This document shows positions 1,247 through 13,034 of a stretch of DNA of 19,727 nt, piece after piece; the stretch's first letter is position 1; every line of letters starts with the position of its first letter. The position numbers and the translations under genes were made by a program. Location: the NCBI GenBank assembly GCA_903825095.1, contig CAIJZF010000020.1, positions 1 through 19,727 of the forward strand. Reading direction: 5' to 3'. The DNA comes from an uncultured Bacteroidota bacterium (GTDB lineage Bacteria > Bacteroidota > Bacteroidia > Chitinophagales > Chitinophagaceae). The notes under the pieces are model-generated. The model did not search any database and was not told where the DNA came from. It saw nothing but the letters and a program-made list of their open reading frames with translations.

Positions 1247-2359
1247 TTAGTTGTAAGATCTAATACTGTAGATGTAATTTTTTAAATTACTCAATTGACT
1301 TTTTCTATTTCTTAAATTGGCAGTATTATTTTTAGACAATTTAATTTTGTCTGACTTCTTATCTTCTTTTTCGTTTACCGATTCAATTAAGTCAAATATT
1401 TTATTCGCCTTCACCGCAAAGGCAACTCCTTCAGCTTGCTTTTGTCTTGTATTGATAATGCCAATAACCTCTCCTTTATCATTAAATAAAGGGGCTCCAG
1501 AAGAGCCTGGATTCGCACTTATTTGAATTTGATAAGAATTGCTATCGCCATTATAACCTGTTTGCGCGCTTAGGTATCCCTTGCCATACACAATGTCATT
1601 ATCATTTCTTGGGTAACCTAATGTAAAAATTTCTTCTCCCAAATCGGTCATCTTTTTACGAATCACAAAGGGGATATTTTTCGGGGCCTTAAAATCTTCG
1701 TCATCAATTTTAAGTAAGGCTAGGTCTGAACTATAATCGCTGTAAATAATATCGGCATGTAATTCTTGGCCCTCACTATTTATAACAATGGCGCCATTTC
1801 CTTTAAGCACATGTGTATTGGTTATGATAAAACCCTTTGCATCAATTAAAAATCCTGAACCACCACTTATAAATTTTGCATTTTCTGGAACCTTAGACTT
1901 TACCTCATTAATCAAATGCCCTTGTACTTGTTGGTTTTTCTTAATCACTTCAATGTCATTACTTAATTGTAATAATTGATTACCATTTAAACTGGGTGAT
2001 AAAGACATTACTAATATAGTAGTAGTTAATGCTATGAAACCTCCCACAGAAGCGGCAATGGCAGTAACTCTTTTATATTTATTCCAAAGTTGTATCACTT
2101 TAGTTTTAGTGCTAATGCTATCGTCGGTCATCCATTCGCCTGCGGCTATTAATTTATTAAATGTTTGGCTAGTTAGTTTTGCAAAGCTGCGTCTATTCGC
2201 ATAAGACTGCATATGGTCCAAGAATAATTTATGCTCCACCACCATCTGATCTATTTCAGGGGTACTTTTTCTAAGGGTCTCAAATTGATTCCTTTCTTGA
2301 ACAGACATGGCGCCTGTCAAGTAGTTTTCAATTGTTTCTAATAATTCTTTGTCTTCCAT
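1247..2359 (-). CDS. Membrane protein: anti-sigma-like N-terminus fused to an extracytoplasmic trypsin-like (HtrA-type) serine protease
   Basis: A 370-residue protein with three parts. Residues 1-95 resemble the cytoplasmic region of zinc-less anti-sigma factors (YLTGAMSVQERNQFETL around 13-29, acidic and helical). Residues 98-120 form one hydrophobic membrane span. Residues 124-155 look like a helical stalk, followed by an S1C/trypsin-like protease domain (about 163-325). The catalytic triad is visible: His183 in TNTHVL, Asp212 in SSDLALLKI and Ser287 in NPGSSGAP. No PDZ domain is present, unlike DegP/DegS. The C-terminus (330-370) is Lys/Asn-rich. The gene lies 50 bases downstream of the ECF sigma gene on the same strand. 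I infer a membrane-bound regulator that holds the sigma factor inside while the protease domain senses or acts outside. The protease assignment is firm; the anti-sigma role is inferred from context and N-terminal pattern. Confidence 0.85.
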   Translation of the reverse strand: MEDKELLETIENYLTGAMSVQERNQFETLRKSTPEIDQMVVEHKLFLDHMQSYANRRSFAKLTSQTFNKLIAAGEWMTDDSISTKTKVIQLWNKYKRVTAIAASVGGFIALTTTILVMSLSPSLNGNQLLQLSNDIEVIKKNQQVQGHLINEVKSKVPENAKFISGGSGFLIDAKGFIITNTHVLKGNGAIVINSEGQELHADIIYSDYSSDLALLKIDDEDFKAPKNIPFVIRKKMTDLGEEIFTLGYPRNDNDIVYGKGYLSAQTGYNGDSNSYQIQISANPGSSGAPLFNDKGEVIGIINTRQKQAEGVAFAVKANKIFDLIESVNEKEDKKSDKIKLSKNNTANLRNRKSQLSNLKNYIYSIRSYN

Positions 2360-2409
2360 TTTGCTTTTTCTCTTTTCTCTTCAATAATTATTACCTCTCT
2401 GCTCTATCT

Positions 2410-3000
2410 TTATTCTCCTATATTATACTGCGCAAAAAATAATTTCTTTAGACGCATTAAACATTTGTATTTCTGATTCTTCGCATTGTCGGCATTTGTG
2501 TATCCAAAATCGGCAGCCAATTCTTGCATTCCTTTTTTATTCAAATAATAACCTTCTAATAAACTTTTACAAGGTTCTCCTAAACTATGTAATGCCCTAT
2601 GCATAATTTCAAAAGAAGCTTCTTTCTTATCAAACTCTCTCATATCTTGTTCTACTGAGACGGTTTCTTCTTGACTACTTAAAGGGCCGCTATATTTTCC
2701 TAATTGATGCAAGCGTTTTAACCACAAGTGCTTGCAAATAGAGAAAAGATAGGTTTTGATTTGACAGGAAAGCACAAATGAATCGGTTTGCACCTTTTCA
2801 TATAAAGTAATCATTGCTTCCTGAAATACATCCCTTGCGTCATCAAAAGAGCCATTGTTGTTTAGAACAAAGTGCTGAATGGAACTAAAATGACTTTTAT
2901 AGAGGGTTTCCACCGCCTTGGAGTCATTATCAGCTAGTCCTTTTAAAAGGGCTTGTTCGTTCAGTTCAGCTTTCAAGAGATTAATACTTAAGTTGAGCAA
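2410..3000 (-). CDS. ECF-type RNA polymerase sigma factor
   Basis: A sigma-70 family protein of up to 196 residues, with only region 2 (about residues 30-98; core DDARDVFQEAMITLYEK) and region 4 (about 131-190; helix-turn-helix around GMQELAADFGYTNADNAKNQK). Regions 1 and 3 are absent, which defines the extracytoplasmic-function group. It should direct RNA polymerase to a dedicated promoter set, probably including its own. No in-frame ATG is near the start: TTG at 2998-3000 gives the longest form, and TTG at 2974-2976 (codon 9) is an alternative that better separates the start from the GGGTTAC box just upstream. The next gene on this strand encodes a putative anti-sigma/protease, and a small lipoprotein gene lies divergently, so the three may form one envelope-stress module. 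Confidence 0.88.
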   Translation of the reverse strand: MLNLSINLLKAELNEQALLKGLADNDSKAVETLYKSHFSSIQHFVLNNNGSFDDARDVFQEAMITLYEKVQTDSFVLSCQIKTYLFSICKHLWLKRLHQLGKYSGPLSSQEETVSVEQDMREFDKKEASFEIMHRALHSLGEPCKSLLEGYYLNKKGMQELAADFGYTNADNAKNQKYKCLMRLKKLFFAQYNIGE

Positions 3001-3106: not shown

Positions 3107-3271
3107 ATGAAAAAAGTAATCGCAATCTTCGCTATCGCGGCATTAGCTGCATGTGGTGGTGCTTCAACTGAAGCTAAGACTGATACTGCTGCTGCAACTG
3201 TTGATACAGCTGCTGCAACTACAGTTGATACAGCTGCTGCTGCAATGGATACTACTGCAAAAGCAAAATAA
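3107..3271 (+). CDS. Small Ala/Thr-rich lipoprotein (54 residues)
   Basis: The ORF begins with an ATG after an AT-rich leader and encodes a short Lys-Lys N-terminus, a hydrophobic stretch and a lipobox, LAAC (residues 13-16). Cys16 should be lipidated after signal peptidase II cleavage. The mature part is only 39 residues, low in complexity, with a near-repeat TVDTAAAT/TVDTAAAA followed by a Lys/Ala tail. The DNA of the repeat is also near-identical. No catalytic domain is visible. The size resembles entericidin-like or spacer-type lipoproteins, but I assign no family. The gene stands alone, with a strong terminator 73 bases downstream, and diverges from the ECF sigma gene, so it may belong to that sigma factor's regulon. 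Confidence 0.8.
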   Translation: MKKVIAIFAIAALAACGGASTEAKTDTAAATVDTAAATTVDTAAAAMDTTAKAK

Positions 3272-3343
3272 ATTATTAGCTTCCAGTTAGAAGGTTAAAT
3301 TATTCATTAAGGCAACTTTTTAGATCGGTAAGCAAAATTTCTG

Positions 3344-3373
3344 AGCCCTTGGTTTCGACCAGGGGCTTTTTTT
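3344..3373 (+). terminator. Rho-independent terminator of the small lipoprotein gene
   Basis: Arms AGCCCTTGGT (3344-3353) and ACCAGGGGCT (3358-3367) pair over 10 positions with one G-T wobble, around a TTCG tetraloop (3354-3357). The T run at the base continues to 3373. This is a textbook intrinsic terminator and insulates the lipoprotein transcript from the aromatic operon promoter about 65 bases downstream. Confidence 0.92.
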
Positions 3374-3437: not shown

Positions 3438-3469
3438 TTTGACTAATAGCCTACAATAGCCTATCTTTG
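3438..3469 (+). promoter_or_regulatory. Bacteroidota-type promoter of the aromatic operon
   Basis: TTTG (3438-3441), a 20-base spacer and TATCTTTG (3462-3469) fit the Bacteroidota primary-sigma consensus TTTG-N(17-23)-TAnnTTTG. Transcription would start a few bases downstream, around 3472-3477, at or next to the leader-peptide ATG at 3477. The leader mRNA would then have almost no 5' untranslated region. Confidence 0.8.
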
Positions 3470-3476
3470 TGCTCCG

Positions 3477-3563
3477 ATGAAAGCAAATATTAACAATTGG
3501 TTTTACTGTTTCTTTTATTTCTACTTTAATCAAAGTAGCCGGGTTGTATTTGTAAAAGCGTAA
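3477..3563 (+). CDS. Aromatic-amino-acid leader peptide (pheL-like, 28 residues)
   Basis: The ORF runs from ATG 3477 to TAA 3561-3563. Residues 8-17 read WFYCFFYFYF: one Trp, five Phe and three Tyr codons in ten, with another Phe at residue 25. Such codon clusters are the hallmark of leader peptides that sense charged tRNA levels in ribosome-mediated attenuation, as in E. coli pheL, pheST and trp leaders. Phe and Tyr dominate, which matches the operon behind it (pheA, aminotransferase, tyrA). The peptide has no other expected role. It sits just after a consensus promoter and ends 22 bases before an intrinsic terminator. The ATG is the first after an in-frame stop at 3447-3449. Codons 21-22 also encode one arm of the predicted antiterminator. 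Confidence 0.9.
   Translation: MKANINNWFYCFFYFYFNQSSRVVFVKA
3521..3538 (+). promoter_or_regulatory. Attenuator hairpin 1 (anti-antiterminator) inside the leader ORF
   Basis: CTACTTT (3521-3527) pairs perfectly with AAAGTAG (3532-3538) around an AATC loop. The 5' arm covers the last Tyr and Phe codons of the aromatic run. A ribosome paused on those codons would open this stem and free the adjacent GCCGGG (3538-3543). Confidence 0.65.
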
Positions 3564-3591
3564 AGAAAATAACTAAATATACAGTCCCGGC
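3538..3591 (+). promoter_or_regulatory. Attenuator antiterminator pairing (3538-3543 with 3586-3591)
   Basis: GCCGGG (3538-3543, leader codons 21-23) is identical to the 3' arm of the downstream terminator and fully complementary to its 5' arm CCCGGC (3586-3591). Pairing would sequester the 5' arm and block terminator formation. The two structures are mutually exclusive, as an attenuator requires. Confidence 0.75.
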
Positions 3592-3609
3592 CCACCAGCC
3601 GGGATTTTT
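3585..3609 (+). terminator. Attenuator terminator upstream of pheA
   Basis: TCCCGGC (3585-3591) and GCCGGGA (3598-3604) form a perfect 7-bp, mostly GC stem with a CCACCA loop. Five T residues (3605-3609) follow, then GTTT. It lies 22 bases after the leader stop codon and 69 bases before pheA, so termination here would switch off the operon when aromatic aminoacyl-tRNAs are plentiful. Confidence 0.9.
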
Positions 3610-3677: not shown

Positions 3678-4514
3678 ATGAATAAAAAGGTAGCAATACA
3701 AGGGTACGAAGGAAGTTTCCACCAAGTGGCAGCTAGGCATTTTTTTGGTAAAAATGTAGAGGTGATTACTTGCGATACATTTAGAAAAGTAGTTCAATTG
3801 GGGGGGGATGCTACATTATCGGATGGGGCTGTGATGGCTATTGAAAATTCAATTGCGGGAAGTATTTTACCTAATTATAATTTATTACAAAAAAGTAAGT
3901 TGCAAGTTATTGGTGAAGTGTATTTATCTATTAGTCAAAACTTACTTACTTATCCTGGTGTAAAATTAGAAGATATTAAAGAAGTGCATAGTCATCCCAT
4001 GGCTATCTTACAATGTTTAGATTATTTAGAAAAGTATAATTGGAAATTAGTAGAGTCGGAGGATACCGCGCTAAGTGCTAAAATAGTACATCAACAAAAA
4101 AGCAAACATACAGCTGCCATTGCAAGTAAGCTAGCCGCTCAAATGTTTGATTTAAATATTATCACACCAGATATTCATACTTTAAAAAATAATATTACTC
4201 GTTTTTTAATAGTAAGTCCTGCAAGTACTAAAATAGTAGTGGAGGAAGCAAACAAAGCATCTATCTATTTTCAAACCGATCACTCTAGAGGGATACTTGC
4301 TAAGGTACTTGCTAAAATTGCGCAAGGCAATGTGAATTTGAGTAAGCTACAAAGTATGCCTATACCAGGCAGCACTTTTAAATACGGGTTTTATGCCGAC
4401 TTAGAATTTGATAATAAAAAACAAATTGAAAAAGTATTAGAAGCTTTAAAAGGTTTAACCAATAGTATTAGAATATTCGGTATGTATCAAAAAGGTAAAG
4501 TTGTAAAAGGATAA
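3678..4514 (+). CDS. pheA: Prephenate dehydratase
   Basis: Converts prephenate to phenylpyruvate, the Phe-specific step, in the cytoplasm. The 278-residue protein has the PDT catalytic domain at 1-180: GYEGSFHQVAA near the start, AIENSIAGS (54-62), HSHPMAILQC (104-113) and the catalytic TRF motif (Thr174 in NNITRFLI). A C-terminal ACT domain (about 193-272, GILAKVLAKIAQGNVNL) is the likely Phe feedback site. The usual ESRP allosteric motif appears as QSMP, so feedback may differ in detail. No chorismate mutase domain is fused, unlike E. coli PheA; that activity is on the DAHP synthase encoded in this operon. First structural gene after the attenuator; the aminotransferase ATG follows after 2 bases. 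Confidence 0.95.
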   Translation: MNKKVAIQGYEGSFHQVAARHFFGKNVEVITCDTFRKVVQLGGDATLSDGAVMAIENSIAGSILPNYNLLQKSKLQVIGEVYLSISQNLLTYPGVKLEDIKEVHSHPMAILQCLDYLEKYNWKLVESEDTALSAKIVHQQKSKHTAAIASKLAAQMFDLNIITPDIHTLKNNITRFLIVSPASTKIVVEEANKASIYFQTDHSRGILAKVLAKIAQGNVNLSKLQSMPIPGSTFKYGFYADLEFDNKKQIEKVLEALKGLTNSIRIFGMYQKGKVVKG

Positions 4515-4516
4515 AA

Positions 4517-5680
4517 ATGAATTGGACTGTATCACATAGATTAGAGGGTATTGGAGAATATTATTTTTCTACCAAACTGCGCGAAATTGATGAACTCAAT
4601 AAAGCCGGTAAGGGGATTCTTAATTTAGGAATTGGCAGTCCCGATTTGCCTCCGCATCCTGATGTGGTTAAAACTTTACACGAAGAAGCGATTAAAGAAA
4701 ATGTACATGGTTATCAATCTTATAAAGGCTCGCCTATATTAAGAGAAGCGGTAGCGAATTGGTATAAAAAATATTTCAAGGTAGCGGATATCAATCCGGC
4801 TACCGAAATACTTCCCTTATTAGGAAGTAAGGAAGGGATCATGCATATATGTATGACCTATTTAAATGAAGGAGATCAGGTATTAATTCCAAATCCTGGT
4901 TATCCTACATATACAAGTGCAGTTAAATTAGCGGGTGGGACCCCGTTATACTATGAGTTGACTGCCGAAAACAGTTGGGCGCCTGACTTTGAAAATTTAG
5001 AAAAATCAGATTTATCAAAAGTCAAGTTAATGTGGGTGAACTACCCGCATATGCCAACAGGCCAAAGGCCTACGAAAGAACTATTTGAAAAAATAGTCGC
5101 CTTTGGAATAAAGCATCAAATATTGATTTGTCATGATAATCCTTATGCCTTCATTTTAAATGATCAACCCGAAAGTTTATTATCTATTGAAGGGGCAAAA
5201 GAGGTAGTGATCGAATTAAACTCTCTAAGTAAAAGTCAGAATATGGCAGGATGGAGGGTAGGCATGTTAATTGCTGCCGAAGACAGAATCAATGAAATAC
5301 TTAGGTTTAAATCCAACATGGACAGTGGTATGTTTTTACCCGTGCAATTAGCAGCTGCTAAGGCATTAAGTCTTGATCAAAGTTGGTATGACTCCGTGAA
5401 CAAAATATATACAGCACGACGCGAAAAAGTATTCGAGTTATTAGATGTTTTAAAATGTGTCTACTCAAAACAACAAGTAGGCATGTTTGTATGGGCCAAA
5501 ATTCCCGCAACTTACAAAGATGGATATGCATTAAGTGATAAAGTATTATACGATGCAAATGTTTTTATTACCCCAGGAGGCATTTTTGGCTCCGCTGGTA
5601 ACGAATACATCAGAGTGAGTTTATGTGGTTCCATAGAAAAATTTAGTGAAGCCATAAAAAGAATTGAAGCATGCGTTTAA
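4517..5680 (+). CDS. Class I/II PLP aminotransferase (probable aromatic aminotransferase)
   Basis: A 387-residue fold-type I aminotransferase. Visible landmarks are GIGSPDLPPHPDV (about 38-50), the cofactor-binding region LLGSKEG, NYPHMPTGQRP (usual NYPNNPTG), the HDNPYAF block carrying the PLP-ring aspartate, Lys239 in SLSKSQNMAGWRVG as Schiff-base lysine, and a C-terminal YIRVSLC arginine for the substrate carboxylate. It lies between pheA (2-base gap) and tyrA (10-base overlap), so it is almost certainly co-translated with them. By context I infer that it transaminates phenylpyruvate and 4-hydroxyphenylpyruvate (or prephenate) to finish Phe and Tyr. Sequence alone does not exclude aspartate or LL-diaminopimelate-type specificity. 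Confidence 0.88.
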   Translation: MNWTVSHRLEGIGEYYFSTKLREIDELNKAGKGILNLGIGSPDLPPHPDVVKTLHEEAIKENVHGYQSYKGSPILREAVANWYKKYFKVADINPATEILPLLGSKEGIMHICMTYLNEGDQVLIPNPGYPTYTSAVKLAGGTPLYYELTAENSWAPDFENLEKSDLSKVKLMWVNYPHMPTGQRPTKELFEKIVAFGIKHQILICHDNPYAFILNDQPESLLSIEGAKEVVIELNSLSKSQNMAGWRVGMLIAAEDRINEILRFKSNMDSGMFLPVQLAAAKALSLDQSWYDSVNKIYTARREKVFELLDVLKCVYSKQQVGMFVWAKIPATYKDGYALSDKVLYDANVFITPGGIFGSAGNEYIRVSLCGSIEKFSEAIKRIEACV

Positions 5681-6510
5681 CAGTCATAGGAATTGGTTTA
5701 ATGGGAGGTTCACTGGCTTTGTCTTTGAAAAAGAAAGGCTTAGTCTCCAATGTCATTGGAGTGGATCAGAACCTTGAACACCAAAAACTGGCTTTGCAAT
5801 TGGGTATTGTAGATGAGATCATGTCTTTGGAAGAAGCCATTGCTGCTTCCGACTTGATAGCCATTGCTACACCCATTAACGTAGCGGAAAATTTATTGCC
5901 CACTATTTTAAACTTAGTGAACAAGCAAGTTGTTTTTGATTTAGGTTCTACTAAAGAAAGTATTGTTAAGATTGCGAATGAGCATATGAACAAAGGCCGC
6001 TTTGTTCCAACACATCCTATGTGGGGAACAGAATTTAGTGGTCCTACTGCTGCACAAGACGATGCTTTCATTGACAAGGCTACTATTATTTGTAATAAAG
6101 AACAAGTAGACAAGGATGCCTTGGAATTAGTAGAAAAAATGTATCAAGCTTTAGGTATGCATATACTTTATATGGATGCCATTAAACATGACATTCATGT
6201 TGCGTATGTGAGTCATATTTCACATATTACTTCTTTTGCATTGGCGAATACGGTGCTAGAGAAGGAGAAAGAGTCTGATGCTATTTTTGAGTTAGCAAGT
6301 AGTGGTTTTGAAAGCACAGTACGTTTGGCTAAGTCCAATGCGGAAATGTGGGTTCCCATTTTTATGCAAAACAAAGAAAATGTATTAGATGTTTTGAATG
6401 AGCATATTAGTCAGTTAAAAAAATTCAAGGCAAGTTTGGAAAAAGAGAATCCGGACTACCTTTTGGAATTGATTCAAAATGCCAATCAAATAAAAAGGAT
6501 TTTAAAATAA
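5671..6510 (+). CDS. tyrA: Prephenate dehydrogenase
   Basis: Oxidative decarboxylation of prephenate to 4-hydroxyphenylpyruvate, the Tyr-specific step. The 279-residue protein starts with a Rossmann nucleotide-binding loop, GIGLMGGSLAL (7-17), with VDQN at the end of the second strand. THPMWGTEFSGP (114-125) corresponds to the conserved HPMxGTE motif, with the catalytic His115. HDIHVAYVSHISH (173-185) in the all-helical C-terminal domain is the substrate-binding region. No chorismate mutase or ACT domain is fused. The start overlaps the last 10 bases of the aminotransferase gene (ATGCGTTTAA), indicating translational coupling. Confidence 0.95.
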   Translation: MRLTVIGIGLMGGSLALSLKKKGLVSNVIGVDQNLEHQKLALQLGIVDEIMSLEEAIAASDLIAIATPINVAENLLPTILNLVNKQVVFDLGSTKESIVKIANEHMNKGRFVPTHPMWGTEFSGPTAAQDDAFIDKATIICNKEQVDKDALELVEKMYQALGMHILYMDAIKHDIHVAYVSHISHITSFALANTVLEKEKESDAIFELASSGFESTVRLAKSNAEMWVPIFMQNKENVLDVLNEHISQLKKFKASLEKENPDYLLELIQNANQIKRILK

Positions 6511-6556: not shown

Positions 6557-8377
6557 ATGAAGAAGAAAGAAGAAGTAGAAATTACAAATGATTTGATAGA
6601 GGCCGTAAAGTCGAAAAAAACATTTACAGAAATTGGTATTAATGATCAATTGGTAAAAGCAGTGACTGAATTAGGATACACACACGCTACTGAAATTCAA
6701 GAGCGTTCTATTCCGGTTTTAATAAGTGGAACTAAAGATTTTATTGGATTAGCGCAAACAGGTACTGGAAAAACAGCAGCCTTTGGTTTGCCCTTATTAC
6801 AATTAATTAAAACAGCAGAAAAATTCCCTCAAGCCTTAGTGGTTTGTCCAACAAGAGAATTATGTATGCAAATTGTGAGCGAAATGAATTTGTTTAAAAA
6901 ACATATTCCAGGTTTGCAAGTATTAGCCGTATACGGTGGAACTTCTATTGGTTTACAAATCAAAGATTTAAAAAGAGGCGTACAAGTAGTAGTAGCCACT
7001 CCAGGTCGTTTAATTGACTTAATAGAAAGAAAGGCCATTAACTTAGAGAAGATTGAATATGTTGTATTAGATGAAGCAGATGAGATGTTAAACATGGGAT
7101 TCCAGGATGACATTGAGTTTATTTTAAAGAATACACCGAATAGAGAAAGTATCTGGTTGTTTAGTGCCACTATGCCTGCTGAAATTAGAAAAGTAAGTAA
7201 GCGTTACATGAAAGAGCCTGTAGAAGTTACGATTGGTAAAGTAAATGCTACGAACAAAAGTATTGATCATCAGTACTATTTAACCTCGGCCCAACATCGT
7301 TATGAGACTTTAAAAAGAATCATCGATTTTAATCCAGGTATCTATGGAATTATTTTTACAAGAACAAAGGCTGATGCACAAGAAGTAGCACAACGTTTAA
7401 CGCGTGAAGGTTATGATATTGATGCTATCCATGGCGATTTAACCCAACAACAACGTGATAGAGTCATGGGTCAATTCCGTGATAAGAGTTTACAATTATT
7501 AATTGCAACCGATGTGGCAGCAAGAGGTATTGATGTAAAAGGTATTACCCACGTAATTAATTTTGAATTACCTGATGATGTAGAAGTATACACACATAGA
7601 AGTGGTAGAACGGGTCGTGCGGGTAGTCAAGGTATTTGTATTTCAATTGTGCACGCGCGTGAGTCTTATCGTTTGCGTCAAATTGAAAACATGAACAAGT
7701 GTACTTTCCATAAATTGGATATTCCTAGTGGTAAGGATGTTTGTAGAAAACAATTTTTCCATGTAATGGATAAATTAATGTCTACCGATGTTAGTCATGG
7801 CGATTATGAAACTTATGTACCAATGCTTGCAGAGAAGTTTGCAGACATGACAAAAGAAGAAATTTTAAAGCGTGTAGCTGCCCTAGAGTTCAACCGATTC
7901 TTAAGTTATTATGAGAATGCGCAGGACTTAAATATTCGTACAGCTGAAAGAGGCCGTCGTGAACCGATGCAGCAACAAGATCGCAACCGTGATAGAGGTC
8001 GTCAAGAATTTAGTGGTGCCGATCGTGGACGCACAAGAAGCAATGATCGTGGTATGGAGAGAAACGCTGGTGACCGTGGAAGTCGAGGTGCAGAAAGAGG
8101 TGCAAGTGGCTATACTCGTTTATTTGTAAACCTTGGTACCAAGGATGGTTTTTACAAGGCTAGTTTTTTACAATTTATATTAGACATGAGCGACTTGAGA
8201 AAAGAAGCTTTAGGTAAAATAGATATGCGTGATATGAATAGCTGGGTAGAAATTGAATCGGGTGCTGCTAAGCAAATGATTAATGCGGTAGATGGCAAAA
8301 ATTATAAAGGTCGTCGTATTAGAATGAATGATGCAGATAGTGGTGGACCCAAAGGCTTTTCTAAAAGAGAAGGTTAA
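6557..8377 (+). CDS. DEAD-box ATP-dependent RNA helicase with DbpA-type RNA-binding C-terminus
   Basis: A 606-residue DEAD-box protein of the CsdA/DeaD-DbpA type that remodels RNA, usually in ribosome assembly or cold adaptation. All core motifs are present: Q motif around residues 41-52, motif I AQTGTGKT (66-73), Ia PTREL, Ib TPGRL, II DEAD (172-175), III SAT (203-205), IV IIFTRT, V ATDVAARGID, VI HRSGRTGRAG (347-356). An Arg/Gly/Asp-rich linker (about 463-516) precedes a C-terminal domain (about 519-590; YTRLFVNLGTKDGF and NYKGRRIRM) resembling the DbpA RRM-like fold. It sits between tyrA (46-base gap) and the DAHP synthase gene (83 bases), splitting the aromatic operon. No promoter or terminator is evident around it, so it may be co-transcribed. 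A link to aromatic metabolism is not expected from the family. Confidence 0.95.
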   Translation: MKKKEEVEITNDLIEAVKSKKTFTEIGINDQLVKAVTELGYTHATEIQERSIPVLISGTKDFIGLAQTGTGKTAAFGLPLLQLIKTAEKFPQALVVCPTRELCMQIVSEMNLFKKHIPGLQVLAVYGGTSIGLQIKDLKRGVQVVVATPGRLIDLIERKAINLEKIEYVVLDEADEMLNMGFQDDIEFILKNTPNRESIWLFSATMPAEIRKVSKRYMKEPVEVTIGKVNATNKSIDHQYYLTSAQHRYETLKRIIDFNPGIYGIIFTRTKADAQEVAQRLTREGYDIDAIHGDLTQQQRDRVMGQFRDKSLQLLIATDVAARGIDVKGITHVINFELPDDVEVYTHRSGRTGRAGSQGICISIVHARESYRLRQIENMNKCTFHKLDIPSGKDVCRKQFFHVMDKLMSTDVSHGDYETYVPMLAEKFADMTKEEILKRVAALEFNRFLSYYENAQDLNIRTAERGRREPMQQQDRNRDRGRQEFSGADRGRTRSNDRGMERNAGDRGSRGAERGASGYTRLFVNLGTKDGFYKASFLQFILDMSDLRKEALGKIDMRDMNSWVEIESGAAKQMINAVDGKNYKGRRIRMNDADSGGPKGFSKREG

Positions 8378-8460: not shown

Positions 8461-9555
8461 TTGGAAAAAATGGGAGACTTAACAGAGCAACAACAAAAAG
8501 TAAGCATTTTATTAAAAAAATCACCCTTGATTATTTCTGGTCCTTGTAGTGCAGAGACAGAAGAACAAGTGATGCAAACAGCTATTCGTTTAGCGGCTAC
8601 TGGTAAAGTAGACATTATGCGTGCAGGTATATGGAAGCCAAGAACCAGACCCGGAAGTTTTGAAGGGATAGGTACCAAAGGTTTGCCATGGATGCAACAA
8701 GCTAAAAAAGAAACGGGTTTGCCTATTGCTGTGGAAGTAGCCACTGCTAAACAAGTAGAAGATGCTTTGCATTTTGGAGTAGATGTACTTTGGGTAGGTG
8801 CGCGTACTACAGTAAATCCTTTTAGTGTGCAAGAAATTGCAGATTCCTTAAAAGGAGTGAAAGTACCTGTGCTTATTAAGAATCCTATTAATCCAGATTT
8901 AGAATTATGGATTGGTGGAATGGAGCGTATTGCTAAAGCGGGTATTGAAGAATTAGGACTTATTCATCGTGGATTTAGCTCATATGGAAATACCGAATAT
9001 AGAAATGCACCTATGTGGCATTTAGCGATTGAGATGAAACGCCGTTACCCAGGTATTCCAATGATCAATGACCCTTCACATATTTGTGGTCGTCGCGATA
9101 TTTTACAAGAAGTAGCGCAACAAGCTATTGACTTAGACTTTGATGGTTTAATTATTGAATCACATATTGACCCAGATAATGCTTGGAGCGATGCGAAGCA
9201 ACAAATTACTCCAGAGGTATTAAAAGAAATGTTGGAAGCTATTCGTTGGAGAAAAGAAGACGTGGCTTCTGCAGAATACCATGCAGCGCTTGAAAAATTA
9301 CGTCAACAAATTAATCAATTAGATGATGAGTTGTTGCAAGTATTATCTACGCGTATGAAAGTAGCTGAGAAAATTGGGGAGTATAAGAAAAATAATGATA
9401 TCACTATTTTGCAAACCAATCGTTGGAATGAAATTTTAGAGCGCGCTGTAGGCAAAGGCAATAAAGTTGGCTTAAGTGAAGACTTTATTACCAAGTATAT
9501 GGACGCCGTGCATATGGAAAGTATCAATCATCAAAATAAAATAATGAATAGTTAG
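8461..9555 (+). CDS. Bifunctional 3-deoxy-7-phosphoheptulonate (DAHP) synthase/chorismate mutase
   Basis: Catalyses the first step of the shikimate pathway (phosphoenolpyruvate plus erythrose 4-phosphate to DAHP) and also chorismate to prephenate. The N-terminal domain (about 20-265) is a type I-beta, KDO8P-synthase-like TIM barrel: GPCSAE (27-32), KPRTRP (59-64), VGARTTVNPF (112-121), KNP (140-142), HRGFSSY (169-175), DPSH (204-207). Probable metal ligands are Cys29, His207, Glu233 and Asp244. The C-terminal AroQ chorismate mutase (about 275-355) shows LRQQINQLDDELL, STRM and GEYKK. This domain order is known in Bacteroidota and can allow prephenate to inhibit the synthase. The longest ORF starts at TTG 8461; ATG 8470 (MGDLTEQ) is at least as likely. 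Confidence 0.94.
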   Translation: MEKMGDLTEQQQKVSILLKKSPLIISGPCSAETEEQVMQTAIRLAATGKVDIMRAGIWKPRTRPGSFEGIGTKGLPWMQQAKKETGLPIAVEVATAKQVEDALHFGVDVLWVGARTTVNPFSVQEIADSLKGVKVPVLIKNPINPDLELWIGGMERIAKAGIEELGLIHRGFSSYGNTEYRNAPMWHLAIEMKRRYPGIPMINDPSHICGRRDILQEVAQQAIDLDFDGLIIESHIDPDNAWSDAKQQITPEVLKEMLEAIRWRKEDVASAEYHAALEKLRQQINQLDDELLQVLSTRMKVAEKIGEYKKNNDITILQTNRWNEILERAVGKGNKVGLSEDFITKYMDAVHMESINHQNKIMNS

Positions 9556-9624: not shown

Positions 9625-10647
9625 ATGAAAAACTGGAAAGTAAAATTTTCGTCTCAGACAGTATCCTTTTTCTTAGAGGGTAAGTTTGCTGCCATCGATA
9701 AAATGGTAGACAAGTCGAATGCTTTTTACATTACAGATGAAAATGTATATGCTTTATACCAAAAAAAGTTTAAAGGAAAGAAGACCATTATAATTCCTGC
9801 TGGCGAAGAACATAAGCAGCAAGCTACCGTAGATTTTATCATTGAAGCCTTAGTTAATTTAGGCGCCACAAGAGAGGCGGTATTAATTGGTGTGGGCGGC
9901 GGTGTGGTAACTGATATGGTAGGTTATGTGGCGGGGGTTTACATGCGAGGAGTAGCTGTAGGTTTTGTACCGACTACTATACTTGCCATGGTAGACGCTT
10001 CTATTGGAGGTAAGAATGGAATTGATTTAGGTATATATAAAAATATGGTGGGCTTAATAAGACAACCTTCTTTTTTAGTATACGATACAGATTTTTTAAA
10101 AACCTTACCCAAGCACCAGTGGGAAAATGGATTTGCTGAAATTATTAAACATGCTGCTATTAAAGATGCAGCCATGATGAAGGCTTTAGCAAGTCATGAT
10201 CTTTCTTATTATCAGAAAAATATAAAAGCCTTACAGCTTTTAATAGAAAAAAATGTACAGATAAAAGTGAAAGTGGTACAAAAAGATGAGTTTGAAAAAG
10301 GCGATCGTAAATTGCTGAATTTTGGACATACCCTTGGACATGCTATTGAAAACCAACATGCATTATTGCATGGCCATGCCATTAGTATTGGAATGGTCTA
10401 TGCTGCTAAAATTTCGCAAGTACTAGAAGGCTTTAAGGATGCTGGTTTGTTGGTAGATACTTTGAAAAAATACGGATTACCTACAAGTATGCGATTCGAT
10501 ATAAATGAAGCTATGCAAGTCATGCAGAAAGACAAGAAAAAAGCCACTGCGGGTATGCAATATGTGCTTTTGCAAAAAATGGGTAAGGCTGTGTATCAAA
10601 CGGTACCTATGAAATCATTAGAAAAATTAATTAAGTTATATTCTTAA
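9625..10647 (+). CDS. aroB: 3-dehydroquinate synthase
   Basis: Second shikimate pathway enzyme: converts DAHP to 3-dehydroquinate with NAD+ and a divalent metal, usually Zn2+ or Co2+. At 340 residues it is close to the usual length. Conserved blocks are IPAGEEHKQ (substrate/NAD region), the NAD-binding GVGGGVVTDMVGYVAG (89-104), PTTILAMVDASIGGKNGID (about 116-134), ENGFAEIIKHAAIKD with the first metal-ligand Glu, FGHTLGHAIE and HGHAISIGM with metal-ligand histidines. Starts at ATG 9625 after a 69-base spacer containing a hairpin; aroA begins 1 base after its stop. Confidence 0.96.
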   Translation: MKNWKVKFSSQTVSFFLEGKFAAIDKMVDKSNAFYITDENVYALYQKKFKGKKTIIIPAGEEHKQQATVDFIIEALVNLGATREAVLIGVGGGVVTDMVGYVAGVYMRGVAVGFVPTTILAMVDASIGGKNGIDLGIYKNMVGLIRQPSFLVYDTDFLKTLPKHQWENGFAEIIKHAAIKDAAMMKALASHDLSYYQKNIKALQLLIEKNVQIKVKVVQKDEFEKGDRKLLNFGHTLGHAIENQHALLHGHAISIGMVYAAKISQVLEGFKDAGLLVDTLKKYGLPTSMRFDINEAMQVMQKDKKKATAGMQYVLLQKMGKAVYQTVPMKSLEKLIKLYS

Positions 10648-10648
10648 A

Positions 10649-11986
10649 ATGCGTGCGATAGTTCATCCAAGTAAGTTAAGTGGTTCGCAGATTGCACCAG
10701 CAAGCAAAAGCTCTATGCAAAGAGCATGCGCAGCCGCTTTAATTCATATAGGCAAAACTATTATACATAATCCTGGTCACTCGAATGATGATTTAGCAGC
10801 CCTAGATGTGATTCAGAAACTAGGAGCTATTGTTGAAACAGAAAAACTTGTTAATGAAAAGGCAAATGCGGGCAGTATAGTAGTGAACTCTAATGGCGTA
10901 AAACCTATTGGCCCTTCAATGAACTGTGGGGAAAGTGGATTAGGTATTCGAATGTTTACACCTATTGCAGCATTAAGTAGTGAATTAATAAATATTGAAG
11001 GCAAAGGAAGCTTGGTGAAAAGACCCATGCATTTTTTTGATGAAATATTGCCTAAGGTGGGTGTAAAAGTTCAGTCTCAAAAAGGTTTTTTACCCATAGC
11101 AATTCAAGGTCCTTTAGTTCCTGCAAATATTACTATTGATGGTTCTTTAAGTTCTCAATTTTTAACAGGTATGTTAATGGCCTACGCGGCTACTGAAAAA
11201 CAAGGTATTGAAATAAAAGTACTGGACTTAAAAAGCAAACCCTACATTGATTTAACCTTGGCAGTCTTGAATGCATTTGGTTGGAAAGTGGAACATACAA
11301 ACTATGAAAGCTTCCGTTTTTTAGCACATGTACCTTTAAAACCTGTTATTGAATACACAGTAGAAGGCGATTGGAGCGGCGCTGCATTTTTATTAGTAGC
11401 TGGCGCCATTGCTGGTCCTATTAAAGTGAAAGGTTTACAATTAAATTCTACACAGGCCGATAAAAAAATAATAGACGCGCTTATAAGTGCAAAAGCCAAT
11501 ATGAAGCAAGAGCAAGATGGCATTTTGATAGGCCCTTCGGCGGATGTTTCAAGTAATAACTCTAATAAAAATTCAAATTATTTTAATGGTTTAATTGCTT
11601 TTGAATTTGATGCAACCGATTGTCCTGATTTATTTCCTCCACTTGTAGCTTTAGCCAGTGTATGTAATGGTATTACTAAAATAAAAGGAGTAAGCAGACT
11701 AGCGCATAAAGAAAGTGATAGAGGACTTACTTTGCAAACGGAATTTGCAAAAATGGGTGTTCAAATTGATTTAGTTGGAGACGAGATGCTTATTCAAGGC
11801 GGAGCTGTTATTCAATCAGCTACTGTTTTCTCTCAACACGATCATAGAATTGCCATGGCCTGCGGAGTAGCTGCATTAGTAGCGAACGGGCCCATTGAAA
11901 TAACAGAGGCAGAAGCGATTAATAAATCTTATACCGATTTCTTTACCCATTTGCAAGAACTGGGTGCAAAAGTGGATATACAATAA
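10649..11986 (+). CDS. aroA: 3-phosphoshikimate 1-carboxyvinyltransferase (EPSP synthase)
   Basis: Transfers the enolpyruvyl group of PEP to shikimate 3-phosphate. The 445-residue protein has SKSSMQRA with Lys20 (E. coli Lys22 equivalent), NCGESGLGIRMF (92-103), SLSSQFLTGMLM (substrate-binding SSQ), EGDWSGAAFLL, a DCPDLFPPL block with the catalytic Asp, HKESDRG with the catalytic Glu, and HDHRIAMA. The PEP-loop differs from the common NAGTAMRP form: Gly is kept, but the Thr and Pro equivalents are Leu98 and Met102, positions where changes in other EPSP synthases lower glyphosate sensitivity. A 1-base gap from aroB suggests coupled translation. Confidence 0.95.
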   Translation: MRAIVHPSKLSGSQIAPASKSSMQRACAAALIHIGKTIIHNPGHSNDDLAALDVIQKLGAIVETEKLVNEKANAGSIVVNSNGVKPIGPSMNCGESGLGIRMFTPIAALSSELINIEGKGSLVKRPMHFFDEILPKVGVKVQSQKGFLPIAIQGPLVPANITIDGSLSSQFLTGMLMAYAATEKQGIEIKVLDLKSKPYIDLTLAVLNAFGWKVEHTNYESFRFLAHVPLKPVIEYTVEGDWSGAAFLLVAGAIAGPIKVKGLQLNSTQADKKIIDALISAKANMKQEQDGILIGPSADVSSNNSNKNSNYFNGLIAFEFDATDCPDLFPPLVALASVCNGITKIKGVSRLAHKESDRGLTLQTEFAKMGVQIDLVGDEMLIQGGAVIQSATVFSQHDHRIAMACGVAALVANGPIEITEAEAINKSYTDFFTHLQELGAKVDIQ

Positions 11987-12017: not shown

Positions 12018-13034
12018 ATGAACAAATTCGGAACCTTATTTACTGTACAAATTTTTGGCGAATCGCATGGTGCCTGTGTGGGCATTACTATAGATGGTTG
12101 TCCAGCGGGTTTACCACTTCAAGCGACTGATTTCGTGGAGGATATGGAGCGTCGCAAAGGTGGCAAGCAAAAAGGAACAACACCTCGTCAGGAAGATGAT
12201 ATTCCTATTTTCAAAGCGGGTTTATTCAATGATATGACCACAGGAGCACCTATCATGATGCTTTTTGAAAATAACAATACTAGAAGCGGTGATTATGAAA
12301 AGCAACGTGCTGTTCCAAGACCAGGTCATGCCGATTTTACAGCGCATCATAAATTTGGTGGCTTTGAAGATTATAGAGGAGGCGGACATTTTAGTGGCAG
12401 GTTAACAGCTGCCTTAGTGGGTGCTGGCGTGGTGGCTAAGAAATTATTAAATGCAGGTAATGTAGAAGAAAAAATTAAAGTAGAAGCTACTATTATAAGT
12501 ATAGCAGGAGAATCAGATGTAGAAAAAGGAATACAGAAAGCTATTGATCAGAAAGATAGTGTGGGCGGTATAGTAGAATGTGTAGTGAAAGGATTACCCT
12601 TAGGACTTGGGGAGCATTTTTTTAATTCTGTGGAGTCTTTAATTAGCCATGCAGTTTTTGCTATACCTGCTATTCGCGGTATTGAATTTGGAACTGGCTT
12701 TGCAGCCGCTTCTATGTTTGGCGTGGATCATAACGATGCTATTGTAGATGCCTCAGGAAAAACAAAAACAAATCATGCCGGTGGTGTGGTAGGTGGTTAT
12801 ACAAACGGAAATGATTTAGTATTTAGAATTGCAGTGAAACCTACTTCTTCAACACCCAAAGAACAAATTACCCTTAATTGGGAAACCAATGAACAAGAAA
12901 CATTTTCAGTAAAAGGAAGACATGATTTATGCATTGCACTCAGAGTGCCTGTAGTACTAGAAGCAGTCACTGCCATTGTGCTTGCAGACTTAATGTTAAT
13001 AGATCAAAAAATTCCTAGAATCCTTAAAAAATAA
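12018..13034 (+). CDS. aroC: Chorismate synthase
   Basis: Last common step: EPSP to chorismate, needing reduced FMN. The 338-residue protein is slightly shorter than many orthologues. Signatures are FGESHGACVGITIDGCPAG (about 14-32), VPRPGHADFTAHHKFGG (FMN and substrate region with the conserved His), DYRGGGHFSGRLTA (a classic signature), and the C-terminal NHAGGVVGGYTNG plus KPTSS block. The RHDLCIALRVPVVLEA segment near the end is also typical. Starts at ATG 12018, 31 bases after aroA; TACCTTG at 11993-11999 could be a weak internal promoter but no -33 element is seen. Confidence 0.96.
   Translation: MNKFGTLFTVQIFGESHGACVGITIDGCPAGLPLQATDFVEDMERRKGGKQKGTTPRQEDDIPIFKAGLFNDMTTGAPIMMLFENNNTRSGDYEKQRAVPRPGHADFTAHHKFGGFEDYRGGGHFSGRLTAALVGAGVVAKKLLNAGNVEEKIKVEATIISIAGESDVEKGIQKAIDQKDSVGGIVECVVKGLPLGLGEHFFNSVESLISHAVFAIPAIRGIEFGTGFAAASMFGVDHNDAIVDASGKTKTNHAGGVVGGYTNGNDLVFRIAVKPTSSTPKEQITLNWETNEQETFSVKGRHDLCIALRVPVVLEAVTAIVLADLMLIDQKIPRILKK

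Follow-up and report, generated by a model that had tools for sequence, protein, structure and literature searches.

Does the short, aromatic-rich open reading frame upstream of pheA in this Chitinophagaceae contig control the genes that follow it and, if so, by which mechanism? An earlier note on the same DNA read the region as a ribosome-mediated attenuator of an aromatic amino acid operon. This core reading is strongly supported by the conservation of the leader, the spacing of its parts and the co-variation of its RNA arms. From these sequence comparisons, we consider it highly probable (roughly 0.92) that the element is a ribosome-mediated attenuator of the pheA–aminotransferase–tyrA–(DEAD)–DAHP synthase operon, which would sense phenylalanine and tyrosine together. 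The features discussed here are collected in Table 1; the window, as used below, is the entire stretch of 19,727 nt.

Table 1. Features of the proposed attenuator and of the operon downstream of it, in window coordinates.
Feature	Coordinates	Strand	Basis and remarks
Bacteroidota-type promoter: TTTG (3438–3441), 20-nt spacer, TATCTTTG (TAnnTTTG; 3462–3469)	3438–3469	+	Sequence
Leader ORF, 28 codons, MKANINNWFYCFFYFYFNQSSRVVFVKA	3477–3563	+	Read from sequence; stop codon TAA at 3561–3563
Stall run WFYCFFYFYF, codons 8–17	3498–3527	+	Aromatic codons kept, F and Y interchange
Hairpin 1 (CTACTTT/AAAGTAG), weak, 7 bp, loop AATC	3521–3538	+	−4.3 kcal/mol, 26 nt folded alone
Arm 2, antiterminator 5′ arm, GCCGGGTTGTAT	3538–3549	+	Folding, comparison
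Arm 3, antiterminator 3′ arm, ATACAGTCCCGGC, U3585 bulged	3579–3591	+	3′ part doubles as the 5′ arm of the terminator
Intrinsic terminator: AGTCCCGGC (3583–3591), loop CCACCA, GCCGGGATT (arm 4; 3598–3606), T tract from 3605	3583–3609	+	
pheA, prephenate dehydratase, first controlled gene	3678–4514	+	Pfam PF00800 above cut-off; NCBIfam prephenate dehydratase models below cut-offs
PLP aminotransferase, probably aromatic	4517–5680	+	Best NCBIfam matches LL-DAP/aspartate-type aminotransferases, below cut-off
tyrA, prephenate dehydrogenase	5671–6510	+	NF006307 above cut-off
DEAD-box RNA helicase within the operon	6557–8377	+	Models below cut-off
DAHP synthase/chorismate mutase	8461–9555	+	Models below cut-off
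aroB	9625–10647	+	TIGR01357 above cut-off
aroA	10649–11986	+	TIGR01356 above cut-off
aroC	12018–13034	+	TIGR00033 above cut-off

Downstream sequence exceeds 5 kb in 64 contig loci; all 64 have the order pheA–aminotransferase–tyrA, and the DAHP synthase gene follows in 63. A DEAD-box helicase gene lies between tyrA and the DAHP synthase gene in 46 of these loci and after tyrA in one more; given its position inside the operon, the helicase would be governed by the aromatic attenuator. The aromatic role of the aminotransferase is suggested by its operon setting. The pheA of the window is 98% identical to that of G001/L060. Further upstream, the minus strand encodes an ECF sigma factor and then a protein with a trypsin-like (HtrA-type) domain (1247–3000), and 63 of 70 loci likewise have a related sigma gene on the upstream side of pheA. 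A small lipoprotein-like ORF at 3107–3271 contains an Ala/Thr-rich repeat (TVDTAAAT) and has no Pfam match. The terminator scan also reports a terminator-like site at 3343–3368, upstream of the pheA leader.

Regions upstream of pheA were gathered with a pheA query from a family sample (68 of 98 genomes matched, 30 loci taken), a genus sample (85 of 101 genomes matched, 29 further loci) and the contigs of named genomes (best 80 of 125 relatives kept). The resulting 139 loci and the window gave 109 distinct upstream regions, none of which was dropped and many of which are closely related to one another. An ATG-initiated ORF with at least six aromatic residues in ten is present upstream of pheA in 106 of these 109 Chitinophagaceae regions, a run of aromatic codons that the earlier note had proposed to look for in relatives. 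The three regions without a leader call are L104 and L049, which are contig ends with 168 and 184 nt upstream, and L114, where the aromatic frame is present without a suitable ATG. A density of at least six aromatic residues in ten codons is reached in 106 of the 108 real regions scored, and of at least eight in 102; the corresponding rates in dinucleotide shuffles (n = 5400) are 1.3% and 0.04%. Upstream of other ORFs of at least 150 aa in the same loci, a density of at least six occurs in 16 of 551 cases. Seven of these 16 score at least eight and are pheA genes that passed the exclusion, and the other nine score exactly six, seven of them preceding one recurring minus-strand gene. The control listing itself comprises 24 rows, with one exclusion left off, and all of its rows scoring at least eight are pheA. 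At least two Phe and at least two Tyr codons occur in the run of all 55 representatives (54 retained after redundancy removal, plus L123), with totals of 307 Phe, 183 Tyr and 14 Trp. The peptide should therefore sense both amino acids, which fits an operon that makes both.

The pheA leader ORF is predicted, from the location of its promoter, to be nearly leaderless. Mapped transcription starts of F. psychrophilum have TAnnTTTG at −12 to −5, according to the main text of PMC9723704, which puts the predicted start in the window near 3474, about 3 nt before the leader AUG. The distance between the end of this box and the leader ATG is 7 nt in 60 of 106 leaders and 4–10 nt in 84 of them (42 of the 55 representatives); the box is 12–33 nt away in six leaders and absent within 45 nt of the ATG in 16. 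Ahead of other ORFs in the same loci, it is found within 60 nt in 59 of 551 cases, with a mode of 17 nt and a distance of 10 nt or less in eight of the 59; in this control, related loci were kept unthinned and the first ATG was the assumed start. Leaderless mRNAs are otherwise rare in Bacteroidota, amounting to 5.5% in F. psychrophilum (main text of PMC9723704), and the reported share of 5′ UTRs shorter than 10 nt in B. thetaiotaomicron is about 3.7%.

The sequence elements listed in the earlier note are all present: the 28-codon ORF with its aromatic run, at the correct coordinates; the hairpin of 3521–3527 with 3532–3538; and GCCGGG (3538–3543), CCCGGC (3586–3591) and GCCGGG (3598–3603), followed by the T tract. 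The pairing of GCCGGG with CCCGGC, proposed there as a 6-bp switch, also holds, although the helix is actually 12 bp long with one bulge. This antiterminator (3538–3549 with 3579–3591) folds at −16.0 kcal/mol (z −3.3, 1 of 200 shuffles as good), and the terminator, reported by the terminator scan at 3583–3606, at −15.8 kcal/mol (z −4.2, 0 of 200 shuffles as good). The two exclusive helices were folded separately because a fold of 186 nt of the leader at once is uninformative (z −0.8, 41 of 200 shuffles as good). The intrinsic terminator lies between the leader ORF and the first gene, as expected of an attenuator. Its core was identified by pattern in 105 of the 106 family leaders and by eye in L123; a separate stem scan missed four of the 106. 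Both helices are kept over the 55 representatives, with outer arm sequences that differ between two clades. The pairing of arm 2 with arm 3 has z below −1.5 in 54 of the 55, and its mean energy is −18.2 kcal/mol, compared to −19.4 kcal/mol for the terminator.

The antiterminator excludes the terminator through their common arm 3, and its two arms co-vary. At the variable ends of NCCGGG in arm 2 and CCCGGN in arm 3, the combinations G/C, G/T, A/C and A/T occur 39, 0, 2 and 8 times, respectively (Fisher p = 1e-7, uncorrected for relatedness; two T/C and four unparsed rows are outside the table). Of the ten leaders in which arm 2 begins with ACCGGG rather than GCCGGG, eight have T rather than C as the last base of arm 3, and seven of these eight keep a G–U pair in the terminator, which argues that arm 3 follows arm 2. 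The core of L137 is changed on both sides, with pairing that persists weakly (z −1.8). Within the RPG clade (29 rows), the percentage of paired positions, the double-change cells and the covariation score beat all 500 shuffles for both helices, and the measure of further pair types was equalled by 83 and 47 of the 500 shuffles. The pair counts of the SRV clade (21 rows), three rows of which are one base out in arm 3, fall within the shuffles. These two alignments leave out five of the 55 representatives (L121, L127, L136, L024 and L028). Co-varying arms, which the earlier note had named as a check, are thus seen over the family and in the RPG clade; for the SRV clade alone, the counts, weakened by the three displaced rows, do not rise above the shuffles.

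Arms were also swapped among 24 loci, 21 of them from the class outside the family and three from the family. Own arms pair with a mean of −15.7, compared to −10.6 for swapped arms (permutation p = 5e-5, the floor of 20000 draws). The own arm ranks first in eight of the 24 loci and within the top three in 13, while three loci rank it 12th, 13th and 24th. Several of the arms from outside the family differ considerably in sequence.

The spacing between the last aromatic codon and CCGGG is 11 nt in 65 leaders, 9 nt in 29, and 8, 10 or 12 nt in six (n = 106). If a ribosome stalled at the final aromatic codon, its front edge would reach roughly to the CCGGG core. A folding model was built with an assumed footprint that shields 12 nt from the first A-site base. 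When the ribosome stalls at one of the nine final codons of the run, the mean probability of the antiterminator, P(2:3), is 0.95–0.97; this value drops to 0.46 once the ribosome has moved a single codon beyond the last aromatic one and to 0.01 after two codons (n = 55). Under this assumed footprint, arm 2 is free during the stall and covered afterwards. The gate is footprint-dependent: footprints of 9 or 15 nt shift the step by one codon, and with 15 nt the probability for a stall at the last aromatic codon is down to 0.44 (28 of the 55 representatives in each case). In this simple model, a ribosome on the stop codon leaves the core of arm 2 free in 36 of the 55, including the window, masks the outer half of the arm and occupies the antiterminator loop. 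The stop codon precedes TCCCGG by 20–47 nt in all 55 representatives, leaving the terminator clear.

An equilibrium switch was considered and rejected, since the terminator prevails in every ribosome state tried for the window. The equilibrium probability of the terminator, P(3:4), is 0.99–1.00 in the five ribosome states of the window and exceeds 0.5 in 44 to 55 of the 55 representatives, depending on the state. The switch must therefore be kinetic, with 2:3 acting only by forming first. For the window, a crude Findpath estimate puts the barrier at 9.5 kcal/mol, which under an assumed prefactor corresponds to roughly seconds. Across the 55 representatives, the median barrier is 8.4 kcal/mol and the tenth percentile 0.6, with values of at least 8 in 29; a zero barrier is also obtained when 2:3 is the final fold, as in L134.

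We propose the following sequence of events. Transcription would start about 3 nt before the AUG, and a ribosome would load immediately. When charged tRNA-Phe or tRNA-Tyr is scarce, this ribosome would stall within the run and leave arm 2 open to pair with nascent arm 3, and RNA polymerase would pass before arm 4 could displace the helix. When charged tRNAs are ample, the ribosome would keep pace and cover arm 2 and the loop as arm 3 emerges; 3:4 would then form and transcription would stop near 3609. Termination under plenty would come about by steric exclusion and timing. In the model, read-through is predicted to rise when the charged cognate tRNA is scarce.

Hairpin 1 has no evident part in this scheme as a protector. 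The earlier note had proposed that melting of hairpin 1 frees GCCGGG and that, with the ribosome at the stop codon, hairpin 1 can re-form and the terminator folds. In the folding model the switch does not work in this way: hairpin 1 shares only G3538 with arm 2 and leaves the arm exposed, and in the model the ribosome itself must cover arm 2. In the textbook three-helix attenuator of the pheL/trpL type, hairpin 1 would hide arm 2 on completion of the leader, and untranslated RNA would terminate. Such an arrangement could account for the weak hairpin (−2 kcal/mol or lower) found just 5′ of arm 2 in 50 of the 55 representatives, a raw count in a pyrimidine- and then purine-rich stretch, and for the fact that Phe_leader (RF01859) is the best sub-threshold Rfam match in the window. 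However, this match scores 28.5 bits, far under the gathering score of 55, and in 52 of the 55 representatives the stronger partner of arm 2 is arm 3 rather than the upstream leader. Furthermore, RNA without a ribosome favours 2:3 before arm 4 is made, with a P(2:3) of 0.999 in the window (mean 0.95, minimum 0.00, n = 55). A protector role of hairpin 1 was rejected on account of the one-base overlap and this ribosome-free pairing, and no helix 1:2 sequestering arm 2 was found at pheA. We thus regard the three-helix form as unlikely at this locus. The simple model instead predicts read-through of an untranslated leader and, with no evident protector helix, superattenuation should not arise. Hairpin 1 is possibly an RNA polymerase pause hairpin. 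It is followed at 3541–3552 by GG-N8-TG, which is also seen by eye in a similar place in the other clade; this motif is similar to the polymerase pause consensus and may pace RNA polymerase.

Conservation of the ORF across Chitinophagaceae is also what a functional small hydrophobic peptide would display, in which case the terminator would merely set a fixed read-through. Such a peptide is very improbable, as Phe and Tyr swap freely with the aromatic class retained, the C-terminal part tracks the RNA arm (through codons that spell CCGGG), the spacing from run to arm 2 is fixed, and his, trp and some ilv genes are preceded by similar His, Trp or Ile/Val leaders. Control of the operon by a T-box, a riboswitch or a protein-bound leader, with the ORF being incidental, is hardly credible: we found no points in its favour, and no Rfam family reaches its gathering score in the window. 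The 11 weak Rfam matches contain no T-box and just one riboswitch, a SAM-SAH fragment on the minus strand that scores 10 bits. On the basis of this search, weak matches included, both a T-box and a riboswitch were rejected.

Returning to ribosome-mediated attenuation, related leaders were found beyond pheA and beyond the family. Of 27 loci from the class but outside the family, 19 have an aromatic leader (at least six in ten), and no such leader was found in the other eight. TAnnTTTG lies 15–35 nt before the ATG in nine of these 19 relatives and is absent within 45 nt in ten. A pattern search for CCGGG-type arms returned 23 matches in 21 of 40 genomes. By coordinates, 17 of these are next to pheA; another is next to a tyrA-like gene, and the remaining five lie elsewhere, including one that by eye overlaps a tRNA-like sequence. 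Ten of the 23 were inspected. In L191 (match at 974), a stand-alone tyrA-like gene, recognized by eye, is preceded by an aromatic leader of its own (MQQVSNINWFYVYYFSCTADRVAFA) and by attenuator arms of the CCGGG kind. For this reason, other operons were looked up via their genes.

Upstream of hisG, 27 of 30 loci (L192–L221) have a leader with at least four His in ten residues; upstream of trpE, a leader with at least three Trp in ten residues is present in 28 of the 29 readable loci of 30 (L222–L251). Runs of at least five consecutive Ile, Leu or Val residues are found in the leaders of ilvD in ten of 30 loci (L252–L281), eight of them with a terminator and pairing arms. Terminators and pairing arms also accompany the His, Trp and Ile/Val-run leaders of hisG, trpE and some ilvD. 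In 18 of 26 His leaders, pairing begins 13–14 nt beyond the last His; the corresponding distance from the last Trp is 12–16 nt in 23 of 28 Trp leaders, and in seven of eight Ilv leaders pairing begins at 10–14 nt. TAnnTTTG is located 4–10 nt before the ATG in 20 of 27 His leaders. The strict box is at this distance in six of 28 Trp leaders, most of which have no box within 45 nt, and it is present in five of ten Ilv leaders, 18–28 nt away; the near-leaderless proposal is therefore not extended to Trp or Ilv. It is possible, as a tentative generalization, that Chitinophagaceae possess protector-free attenuators for Phe/Tyr, His, Trp and partly Ilv, those for Phe/Tyr and His being translated from the very 5′ end; a protector was looked for at pheA only.

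This kind of attenuation is known, is already suspected in Bacteroidota and is little described there. PMC4833913 cites a comparative study by Lopatovskaya et al. (2010) on attenuation. In Enterobacteria, attenuation of pheA by pheL (RF01859) involves a Phe-only leader. The window resembles this system in its regulatory-codon leader ORF, in the arm common to antiterminator and terminator and in the control of pheA. It departs from pheL in its mixture of Phe and Tyr codons (55 of 55 representatives), its predicted nearly leaderless ORF and the lack of an evident protector helix. Sensing of several amino acids of a common pathway by one leader is known from ilvL and thrL of Enterobacteria, which are similar in this respect but concern other amino acids and another lineage. 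The Bacteroid-trp motif is of the leader-peptide type. This motif (RF01692), like the element described here, belongs to Bacteroidetes and is listed as cis-regulatory in table 1 of PMC2864571. It gave no match at the gathering score in the window or in six Chitinophagaceae trp loci with WWW leaders, and these six loci are without any Rfam match at the gathering score.

The statement in the earlier note that the arrangement may be undescribed for this lineage was too strong. According to the main text of PMC9723704, there are strong indications that amino acid operons of F. psychrophilum are preceded by leader-peptide attenuators, and structured 5′ elements upstream of pheA, hisG and others are present in other Flavobacteriaceae genera. 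The pheA and hisG elements share the phylum, the gene and the suggested leader-peptide attenuation with the window; they are from another family, and the passages of that main text considered here do not detail the pheA peptide, arms or mechanism. Among the literature matches listed (titles and abstract starts, few of them from subscription papers), a Chitinophagaceae pheA leader is not described. We would call the Phe/Tyr mix, together with the nearly leaderless ORF and the missing protector, both predicted, the features of a variant.

Attenuation needs a ribosome that closely trails RNA polymerase. Bacteroidota ribosomes fail to recognise Shine-Dalgarno sequences, according to PMC9976891. 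If the tentative generalization above is true, a start at the 5′ end would let ribosomes that are blind to Shine-Dalgarno sequences load early and couple with RNA polymerase. The ribosome-free default would then be read-through, the opposite of the enterobacterial default, and an untranslated leader is predicted to respond with this unusual sign. The conserved attenuator would offer a ready-made reporter of transcription-translation coupling in Bacteroidota, and the attenuators predict how Chitinophagaceae set the synthesis of Phe, Tyr, His and Trp.
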